Assembly: GCF_000971395.1 (NCBI RefSeq)
Contig: NZ_BBME01000016.1
Location: 62,001-126,000 of the forward strand
Reading direction: 5' to 3'
DNA from: Demequina iriomotensis
Lineage (GTDB): Bacteria; Actinomycetota; Actinomycetes; Actinomycetales; Demequinaceae
Length of the DNA stretch: 64,000 nucleotides
The stretch's first letter is position 1; each line of letters opens with the position of its first letter. The notes under the pieces are model-generated. The model did not search any database and had not been told where the DNA came from. It worked only from the letters and a program-made list of their open reading frames with translations. A program made the translations under genes and the position numbers. This document shows, piece after piece, positions 56,222-58,809 of this stretch.

Positions 56222-57505
56222 TCAGGGACGGATGTGACCCTCGCCGTACGCGACCCAGGTGGTCGTGGTGAGCTCGCCGAGCCCCATGGGCCCGCGCGCG
56301 TGGAGCTTCTGCGTGGAGATGCCGATCTCCGCTCCCAGCCCGAACTCGCCGCCGTCGGTGAACCTCGTCGACGCGTTGACCATGACGGCGGCGGAGTCGA
56401 TGTGCGCGACGAACCGCTGCGACGCGTCGATGTCGTTCGTGACGATCGCCTCGGTGTGGCCGGTCGAGTAGCGCGCGATGTGCTGGATCGCCTCGTCGAT
56501 CGAGTCGACCACCTTGACCGCGAGGTCGAGCGACAGGTACTCCGTCGCCCAGTCCTCCTCCGTGGCGGGAACCGTCGGGACGTTCGCCGGCGCGAGGTCG
56601 GCCGCCGCATCGTCCGCATGGATGGTCACGCCCGCCTCGTGGAGCGCCTCGAGGATCACCGGAAGGTTGTCCGCGGCGTCCTTGTGGACCAGGAGCGTCT
56701 CGGCCGCGTTGCACACCCCTACGCGGTGCGTCTTCGCGTTGAGCACGATCGCGAGCGAGCGCTCGAGCGGCGCCGACGCGTCGAGGTAGACGTGGCAGTT
56801 GCCCTCCCCCGTCTCGATCGCGGGCACCGTCGACTCGCGCACGACGGTCTGGATGAGGTCACGTCCGCCGCGCGGCACGAGCACGTCGACGAGCCCTCGC
56901 GCGTTCATCAGCACCTTCGCCCCGGCGCGCCCGTACGCGTCGATGGACTGGACGGCGTCGCGCGGCAGGCCGACCTCCTCGAGCGCGTCCTGCAGCACCT
57001 CGACGATGACCTCGTTCGATGCGGCGGCCGCCGAGCCGCCGCGCAGCACGGCCGCGTTGCCCGACTTGAGCGACAATCCGGCGGCGTCGACGGTCACGTT
57101 CGGGCGCGCCTCGTAGATCATGCCGACCACGCCCATCGGCACGGCCTTCTGGATGATCCGGATGCCGTTGGGGAGCGTCGAGCCCCGCTTTACCTCACCG
57201 ACCGGGTCGGGGAGCGTCGCGACGTACCTCAGCGCCTCGGCGATCTTCGCGATGCGGTCCTCATCGAGCGCGAGGCGGTCGAGCAGGCCCGGGCTCATGT
57301 CGTTGCCAAGCCCCCGCGCGAGGTCCTCGGCGTTGGCGGCGACGATGCGCGGCGCCTGCGCGACGAGCGCGTCGGCCATGGCGTGGAGCGCATCGTTCTT
57401 CGCCGTCGTCGTGGCGGTCGCGAGCGCGCGCGACGCGAGCTTGGCGCGCCGGCACGCCTCGAGGACGGCGGATTCGACGTCGGTGGGGATCGCGGTCTCG
57501 GTCAT
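56222..57505 (-). CDS. proA: gamma-glutamyl phosphate reductase
   Basis: A 427-residue aldehyde-dehydrogenase-fold enzyme that reduces glutamyl-5-phosphate to the semialdehyde in proline synthesis. Blocks: [43 protein letters not shown], catalytic C265 in [47 protein letters not shown] 57505. Separated from proB by 188 bp that hold a 96-bp interrupted palindrome. Confidence 0.96.
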
Positions 57506-57575
57506 GTCTGTCGAGTGTAGAAGCCCCGAAGGTGCCTGCCCAGGCCCGTGTGGCACCATCCCCGCCCCACTCCCT

Positions 57576-57671
57576 GACACCAGCAACGGAGTTGGTCCCG
57601 GGTGCGCGGCGTGTCGCCCGAACACGGCCGCGACACGCCCGCGAACCGGGACTCGATCCGTTGGAAGTGTC
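57576..57671. repeat. 96-bp block-structured interrupted palindrome between proB and proA
   Basis: Left arm 57576-57617 and right arm 57630-57671 are inverted copies without indels. Shared blocks are GACAC, CAACGGA, TCCCGG and GCGTGTCGC, separated by spacers of exactly 3, 5 and 7 bp that differ between arms; the central loop is 12 bp. As RNA it would be a long hairpin with three symmetric internal loops. No coding sense. It could be an operon-internal regulatory or processing hairpin, a decayed mobile element, or a two-site protein target. Confidence 0.85.
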
Positions 57672-57693
57672 GGACAGGGCGGGGCGGGGCGGG

Positions 57694-58809
57694 TCAGAGC
57701 ACCACGAGGTGGTCGATGTGGATGAGCTCGCGCGCGTAGGCCTCGCCCAGCACCTCGCCGAGCGCCTCCGTCGACAGCCCCTTCATGCGGTCCGCCTCGT
57801 CCGACGAGAAGCCCGCGAAGCCGCGGGCCACCAGCGCGCCGTCCGGCGCGAGCAGGTCGACGGGCTCCCCCGCCTCGAAGTCGCCGCGGATCTCCACCAC
57901 GCCGGCCGCCAGCAGGGACGCCTGGCGTCCACGCAGCGCCCGCACCGCGCCGTCGTCCAGCACGATGCCGCCGCGGGTCTTGGCGGCGTCCGCGAGCCAC
58001 TGCAGACGCGTGGTCTCGGCCTTGCCCGTGGGCAGGAACAGCGTCCCCACGTCCTCGCCGGCGACGGCGCGCGCCGCATCGTGCGCCGCCGCGAGGACCG
58101 CGTGGACGCCCGAGGCCGTCGCGAGCGACGCCGCCTCGATCTTGGTGATCATGCCGCCGGTGCCCACGGCGGAGCCGCGGCGCGAGATGTCGATGCCGTG
58201 CAGGTCCTCCGGACCCGCGACGGAGACGATGCGGCGGGCGCCCGGGGTGCCGGGAGCCGCCGTGTAGAGGGCGTCGACGTCGGTGAGGAGGACGAGCGCG
58301 TCGGCTCGCACCGCGGTGGCGACGAGCGCGGCGAGGCGATCGTTGTCGCCGAAGCGGATCTCGTCCGTCGCCACCGTGTCGTTCTCGTTGATGATCGGCA
58401 CCACGCCGAGCGCGAGCAGCGACTCGAGCGCGCGGCGTGCGTTGCCGTAGTGCGCGCGACGCACCATGTCGTCCGCGGTGAGCAGGACCTGACCGACCGT
58501 GAGGCCGAACCGCGCGAACGCCACCGTGTACGCGTGGACCAGCTTGCCCTGACCCACCGAGGCGGCGGCCTGCTGGAGCTCGAGGTTGGTGGGGCGGGCC
58601 GCGAGCCCGAGCGGGCCGATGCCCGCCGCGATCGAGCCGGACGTCACCAGCAGCACCTCGCGGCCTTCGCGCCGCGCCGCGCCCAGGACGTCGACGAGCG
58701 CGCCGAGGCGCGCCTCGTCGAGCTGCCCGCCCGGTCCCGTGAGCGACGACGACCCGACCTTGACGACGATGCGCCGTGCCTGCGCCACCGCCGTGCGCGC
58801 CTCGCTCAC
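57694..58809 (-). CDS. proB: glutamate 5-kinase with PUA domain
   Basis: A 371-residue kinase for the first step of proline synthesis. Amino-acid kinase domain: [59 protein letters not shown]. The C-terminal PUA domain begins about residue 280 ([21 protein letters not shown]). ATG 58809, 34 bp after obgE, so part of the rplU-obgE-proBA unit. Confidence 0.96.

Follow-up and report, generated by a model that had tools for sequence, protein, structure and literature searches.

The palindrome between proB and proA of Demequina iriomotensis is one copy of a dispersed family of two-fold symmetric elements that may act at gene ends

The locus between proB and proA

In Demequina iriomotensis the genes proB and proA are separated by a 96-bp palindrome of conserved and variable blocks. 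The locus raises the question of whether this palindrome serves proline synthesis or something more general, and whether its blocks are kept for pairing in an RNA or for recognition by a protein. The window, by which we mean the whole stretch of 64,000 nucleotides that was analysed, contains the following features at this locus.

57576-57671, no strand: two-fold symmetric element of type I, both arms of form A, 96 bp
57576-57617, plus strand: left arm, GACAC (57576-57580), three bases, CAACGGA (57584-57590), five bases, TCCCGG (57596-57601), seven bases, GCGTGTCGC (57609-57617)
57630-57671, minus strand: right arm, the left-arm blocks in the same order at 57671-57667, 57663-57657, 57651-57646 and 57638-57630
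57618-57629, no strand: centre separating the arms, 12 bp
57560-57575, plus strand: C-rich sequence flanking the element
57672-57693, plus strand: G-rich flank of the element, directly preceding the proB stop codon (57696-57694, minus strand)
57694-58809, minus strand: proB, AA_kinase and PUA, stop 22 nt from the element
56222-57505, minus strand: proA, aldehyde dehydrogenase family, start 70 nt past the element
57514-57519, minus strand: TACACT hexamer, TANNNT-like, candidate -10 of a separate proA promoter, conserved (TAGACT in D. phytophila)
57531-57557, minus strand: palindrome GGTGCC-N15-GGCACC, outside the element, conserved upstream of proA in 4 aligned Demequina sequences

The sequence-only reading had described a palindrome at this position with spacers of 3, 5 and 7 bp, and its coordinates, block order and spacers are all borne out. 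The pattern GACAC-N3-CAACGGA-N5-TCCCGG-N7-GCGTGTCGC fits both 57576-57617 (plus strand) and 57630-57671 (minus strand) with 0 mismatches, and a comparison of the two arms confines their divergence to the three spacers, as had been claimed. No further match within 3 mismatches occurs in the 64-kb window, and 100 dinucleotide shuffles gave 0 matches. The RNA fold of 57560-57690 amounts to -96 kcal/mol at a shuffle mean of -61 (z -8.8), and 0 of 200 shuffles were as good. A terminator scan of 57400-57800, done for the proB-proA copy, gave 0 sites of a T-tract terminator, and an Rfam search of 57300-57900 returned one match, which is under its gathering score.

The TANACT hexamer lies 9-14 nt ahead of the proA start and is kept in 4 of 4 aligned Demequina sequences. 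Our interpretation is that it may be the -10 of a promoter belonging to proA itself; the sigma-70 scan, which found no promoter in 57400-57800, gives no call there. GGTGCC-N15-GGCACC and TANACT just upstream of proA represent a possible operator plus promoter.

Type I elements with differing spacers are also found upstream of proA in D. gelatinilytica (G019, in which the flanks of the proB-proA element are identical to locus L044 across 3006 bases and the core is identical too) and in G061, whose contig stops 30 bp past its proA-side element, so that proB is out of view. In D. phytophila the gap upstream of proA is occupied by another member of the wider family, a palindrome that has the core together with a GCACGGT block. 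In D. sp. SYSU T00192 and D. aurantiaca there is no element after proB, and a different sequence is found there.

A dispersed family in Demequina

The proB-proA palindrome belongs to a family of dispersed elements with two-fold symmetry that extends across much of Demequina. A BLAST search of the element against its own genome gave 57 matches. The pattern CAACGGA-N56-80-TCCGTTG has 50 occurrences in the own genome, 38 in G019 and 28 in G010, while the reversed pattern used as control is found 0 times in all three. It matches in 9 of 44 Demequina genomes; matches in G017, G062 and G065 were counted as chance because the core is absent there. BLAST against 59 genomes detected matches in 6, all of them Demequina, and the window's element had a match in 0 of the 22 genomes from other genera of the order. 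Across the order, Demequina included, 58 of 396 genomes match the core pattern. Outside Demequina, the ten core loci returned span 39-42 bp instead of 48-49, and the remaining matches number at most 4 per genome.

In total 135 elements were extracted (54 from the own genome, 41 from G019, 31 from G010 and 9 from others), copies at contig ends being counted only if both arms were whole in the retrieved piece. The length is 94-97 bp in 134 of the 135, and the remaining one has 86 bp. Several draft contigs break inside or within about 30 bp of elements (G000: C7 start, C9 end, C14 end, C16 end; G025: C13 end; G061: C32 end), and since contigs end in or near elements the copy counts in drafts are probably low. 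The sequence-only reading had hinged on a second instance of the block pattern or on conservation in related proBA gaps. Both are now at hand, the first in the 54 own copies and the second in the elements or palindromes upstream of proA in D. gelatinilytica, G061 and D. phytophila.

De novo clustering of hairpins was tried as well and dropped, as 194 of 243 hairpins merged in this high-GC DNA. A search of the literature on Demequina repeats, MITEs, actinobacterial intergenic palindromes and terminators, mostly by title, found no published description of the element family.

Anatomy of the type I elements

The plan of the type I elements is GACAS, a spacer of 3 bases, CAACGGA, a spacer of 8 bases, a third block rich in C and G, a variable centre and then the mirror image of these. 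Among the 270 arms, G1, A2, C3 and A4 are kept in 98-100% each, A10-A15 in 96-100%, and in the third block C24 in 94%, G25 in 98% and G33 in 97%. At position 5 about 97% of the arms have C or G, and variation is found at positions 6-8 and 16-23. Two forms of the third block occur. Form B has CGACACGCCG at 24-33, and form A has TCCCGG followed further in by GCGTGTCGC. The 135 elements comprise 74 B-B, 49 A-B and 11 A-A combinations and 1 truncated copy, and the block list first given for the proB-proA copy covers the A-A sub-form alone. Recurring words such as GGACGATGCGC are frequent in the otherwise variable centre.

Across 126 copies the sequence flanking the element is rich in C on the left and in G on the right, which means C-rich entering and G-rich leaving in either reading direction. 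The flanks pair in register no better than permuted flanks do (126 copies). Tandem partial copies of an element end lie beside four own elements (L030 2440-2540, L013 1635-1700, L024 1441-1460 and L162 1470-1510); at L030 there are about four copies of a 23-base unit at the element end, as if the boundary had been copied repeatedly.

Pairing in RNA or recognition by a protein

Two readings of the block pattern had been offered from the sequence, paired blocks in an RNA hairpin or a two-fold symmetric protein target. Pairing across the arms was examined by permutation on 53 own, 41 G019 and 31 G010 elements, the 86-bp own element being dropped (z values are given in this order). The spacer at positions 5-8 pairs at chance level (z -1.4, 1.4, 1.1). 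The spacer at 16-23 pairs below chance (z -4.0, -2.4, -3.2), because the two arms tend to differ in kind. Weak signals in favour of pairing come from the centre at 34-46, which pairs slightly above chance (z 3.1, 2.8, 3.1), from positions 1-4 of the own elements (z 4.9; 0.986 vs 0.977) and from the third block of B-B elements (z 0.9, 3.9, 4.9; 0.952 vs 0.938 in G019 and 0.956 vs 0.934 in G010). At least 80% of positions 34-45 are paired in 7 of 53 own, 4 of 41 G019 and 6 of 31 G010 elements. RNA covariation of the arms is thus mostly unsupported, and what is left of the RNA reading are these weak signals in the centre, in the own positions 1-4 and in the B-B third block of G019 and G010. A two-fold symmetric protein target fits the fixed spacing, the near-invariant blocks and the independent spacers. 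Judged from the sequences, two-fold recognition by a hypothetical protein would fit the element better than paired RNA does.

In the shared copies compared, the blocks change more slowly than the spacers. Flank-sharing locus pairs that were alike and of near-equal length could be counted in 11 of 27 cases for own/G019, 10 of 24 for own/G010 and 17 of 23 for G010/G019. In the same order, changes affect 3 of 242, 3 of 220 and 1 of 374 positions in the outer blocks, 52 of 88, 45 of 80 and 28 of 136 in the first spacer, and 44 of 176, 39 of 160 and 31 of 272 in the second spacer; the conservation of the blocks in these counts is partly selected, as the loci were fetched through block matches. Arm positions 5-6 are changed in 26% of the G010/G019 comparisons vs 12% in the centre. 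Since position 5 holds hardly anything but C or G, the changes would be mainly C-G transversions, which are normally rare.

Other outer vocabularies

Three further outer vocabularies are found in the genus. Elements with TTCGCT-N2-GCACGGT and the shared core are present in G025 (12), G024 (10), G016 (7), the own genome (4), G030 (2) and G005 (1). The GACA-N3-CGCACGG elements are most numerous in G021 and G028 (35 each), followed by G059 (13), G022 (6), G005 (4), G011 (2) and the own genome (1). GACA-N4-GAACC elements occur in 17 genomes with the highest number, 18, in G033; a lone match in G009 resembles coding DNA. Among the matches listed, elements of these three vocabularies are 94-97 bp long, though the patterns permitted roughly 78-103 bp. 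A credible element of any of the four vocabularies is found in at least 29 of 44 Demequina genomes, a tally in which G002, G012, G027 and G029 are represented by match counts alone. Block words that change in mirrored fashion from one vocabulary to another are what pairing and two-fold protein recognition would both predict.

Position relative to genes

Genes were predicted with a simple codon-bias gene caller, which allowed us to place 133 of the 135 type I elements. None overlaps a predicted gene; 69 lie in tandem, 55 in convergent and 9 in divergent settings. The nearest facing stop codon is at a median distance of 12 nt (124 copies with such a stop) and within 30 nt in 111 of the 124, and in 23 of them the element itself contributes the final two bases of the stop codon. 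The own elements were set against the intergenic gaps of 100 bp or more that occur within 184 kb of their genome, some of which bear elements. Convergent settings are enriched (21 of 54 elements vs 7 of 59 gaps, p = 0.001) and divergent ones depleted (4 of 54 vs 16 of 59, p = 0.007). Fifty elements of the other vocabularies were obtained with flanks and 47 of these were placed, 22 tandem, 19 convergent and 6 divergent. A facing stop exists in 41 cases, at a median distance of 15 nt, and a single element overlaps a predicted reading frame. The seven convergent type II copies are 8-17 nt from both stops.

The C-richness of the first 12 bases past a stop codon amounts to a skew of -0.51 at 14 gene ends next to elements and is weaker, -0.16, at 103 other gene ends. 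Compared to composition shuffles, 48 of the 54 own copies fold with a z below -2 and 6 do not. Among 28 tandem A-B copies, 22 have the A arm on the side of the upstream gene (10 of 10 in G019, 6 of 8 in the own genome, 5 of 8 in G010 and 1 of 2 in others). The T-type arm of tandem copies is on the side away from that gene in 15 of 21 own, 6 of 12 G019, 5 of 10 G010 and 2 of 3 other cases; these polarity counts take orthologous copies repeatedly. Tandem elements carry some direction, and the two-way symmetry is imperfect.

Copying and turnover

Closely similar copies are found at unrelated sites. The best within-genome pairs at different sites reach an inside identity of 86-100% in three genomes. 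The window's element is 94% identical inside to the L009 copy on another contig, the median of the own background being 59%, whereas the G019 elements at the same two sites differ strongly (66 of 97 and 56 of 98 aligned columns identical). Two G019 copies 1.7 kb apart are identical, and their G010 counterparts differ by about 12% inside. Identity between similar copies drops at or near the element ends.

At some of the shared sites the slot persists but holds a different occupant in another species. One site holds the TTCGCT type in the own genome and type I in G019, and two sites hold type I in the own genome and an unrelated palindrome in G019. Other recurring palindromes of G019 with the words GTGCTGAGTGCCC, CTGACACATG and CAAGCGTTTACCCC were seen in the C23 stretch (joined coordinates 32199, 64542, 73386, 81238, 113369 and 115082) and at about 2700-2850 of L199; two of them occupy a slot that holds a type I element in the own genome.

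A 120-kb stretch was selected for holding three known shared loci, which serve as anchors. Seven own type I copies lie in it, and in G019 3 of them are intact (these are the anchors), 1 is decayed, 1 is replaced by another palindrome family and 2 are other sequence. In G010 5 of the 7 are present, among them 2 of the 4 that are not anchors. Turnover is fast in this stretch, which weakens the case for long-term constraint on each site.

Neither a clean empty site nor a target duplication was found among the few sites compared. Arms within one mismatch number 138 (control 5), and the two unpaired own loci inspected away from contig ends, L152 and L163, resemble truncated copies; no longer element with these ends was found among the arms listed. 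The REP transposase domain (Y1_Tnp, PF01797) has 0 matches in 44 Demequina genomes at E 0.001, while 5 of 14 control genomes were positive.

Possible function and alternative explanations

On balance, and by no more than a little, we incline to regard the elements as a palindrome family of about 95 bp, REPIN- or MITE-like, whose copies serve as two-way 3'-end (terminator) elements with blocks read by a putative protein. Transcription would be ended from either side by the hairpin and the C-rich approach, and possibly by the bound protein as a block. GACA, CAACGGA and CGACACGCCG would be read by a putative dimeric DNA-binding protein, the outer specificity of which would vary by clade. By copying of the whole 95-bp unit the elements might spread or overwrite resident ones. 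Between proB and proA the element would end the proB transcript, and proA would be transcribed from its own promoter. Counting against a terminator are the divergent copies (9 of 133 of type I and 6 of 47 others), the 6 of 54 own copies that fold no better than z -2, the imperfect two-way symmetry of the tandem A-B copies and, for the proB-proA copy, the lack of a T-tract.

A more specific version of this reading is only tentatively put forward, and as a whole it is rather unlikely to be correct. According to it Demequina uses at its gene ends an element that would be read by a protein and act in both directions. Its blocks would keep the same coordinates, and its length would be fixed at about 95 bp, close to nine turns of the helix. 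Its outer words (CAACGGA, TTCGCT..GCACGGT, CGCACGG and GAACC) would have been switched between clades while the third block and the length were kept, and residents would be overwritten, either by copies that come from elsewhere or by palindromes of other families, so that the gene-end slot outlasts its occupants. The terminator system would thus be a copying population, and one that works without a REP-type transposase.

The strongest rival, which we consider a real possibility though not a probable one, is a selfish non-autonomous palindrome of the MITE or REPIN kind, tolerated after stop codons and without host function, of which only copies with intact protein sites propagate. This would account for the closely similar copies at different sites in each of three genomes, for the change of occupants at sites shared between species, for the clade-specific outer vocabularies, and for the decayed copy and the fast turnover at the non-anchor sites of the 120-kb stretch. 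As the three intact shared copies are the anchors of that stretch, this rival gains weight and the gene-end reading loses some. However, no REP-type transposase was matched in the 44 genomes and no longer element with the same ends was seen among the arms listed. The blocks are kept and the spacers diverged in shared copies, a count biased by fetching the loci through their blocks, and convergent copies fit between both stops more tightly than mere avoidance of genes requires.

It is improbable that the palindrome is the immobile binding site of a chromosome-organising or roadblock protein on double-stranded DNA. The two-fold symmetry, the fixed spacing of near-invariant blocks, the tolerance of C or G at position 5 and the spacers that do not covary would suit such a site, but fixed host sites can hardly explain that the outer words differ in concert from one clade to the next and that copying occurs between sites, and the protein is itself hypothetical. 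Most improbable is an RNA hairpin devoted to proline synthesis, acting as attenuator or for stability. The stable fold between proB and proA would speak for it, as would the occurrence of an element or palindrome ahead of proA in three related sequences. Against it are the 54 extracted own copies beside other genes, the spacers without covariation and the absence of an Rfam family at the gathering score.

A regulatory RNA specific to proBA was rejected likewise, its copies lying beside many other genes and its helices lacking covariation beyond the weak signals. As copies adjoin many other genes, a role specific to proline or proBA is unsupported, and the hairpin, though first framed as belonging to the proline genes, is not peculiar to their pathway.

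If the gene-end reading is true, it would bear on how transcription is ended without T-tracts in these genomes of high GC content. The four outer vocabularies on one plan would then offer a natural series for finding the reading protein and the copying mechanism.

Comparison with known systems

The integron attC site has the core RYYYAAC / GTTRRRY. With AAC at positions 10-12 a purine should stand at position 6, but about 96% of the arms have T or C there, and the attC site was rejected. Like intrinsic bidirectional terminators, the elements form a stable hairpin shortly past stop codons, often between convergent genes and in principle usable both ways. They differ in the absence of a T-tract, as determined for the proB-proA copy, and in blocks conserved beyond the needs of a hairpin. 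The BOX elements of Streptococcus are modular dispersed palindromes with interchangeable modules. The Demequina elements are modular dispersed palindromes too, but of fixed length, and no repeated inner module was seen in them. Bacterial MITEs such as Correia and RUP are short and non-coding, with inverted terminal repeats and dispersed copies. The Demequina element agrees with them in all of these properties, but differs in its strict length and block coordinates and in its adjacency to stop codons, and neither a parent transposon nor a target duplication was found.

The nearest known kind are, as far as the cited descriptions go, the REPINs and REP sequences with their REP-associated tyrosine transposases (RAYTs) (PMC3116915, PMC3733652). 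In these descriptions REPINs are inverted doublets of similar size that form a hairpin, have conserved ends, a variable middle of kept length and several sequence types, and are extragenic, mainly downstream of genes in convergent and tandem gaps (PMC3116915, PMC3733652), all of which resembles the Demequina element. The REP tag is described as GTAG or CGTC at one end (PMC3733652), whereas the Demequina elements end in GACA (270 arms). They also differ from the REPINs described, which have one continuous 16-mer, in being built of several blocks that stand apart at fixed coordinates. Compensatory changes are reported to be common in REPINs (PMC3116915); in contrast to what is described there, the Demequina spacers are without them, apart from the weak signal in the centre. 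Because neither the tag nor the transposase was found, the latter with no Y1_Tnp match in 44 Demequina genomes, we do not file the family as a member of REPIN/RAYT. If our reading is true, it would rather be an actinobacterial counterpart of the REPINs that runs without a known REP transposase.
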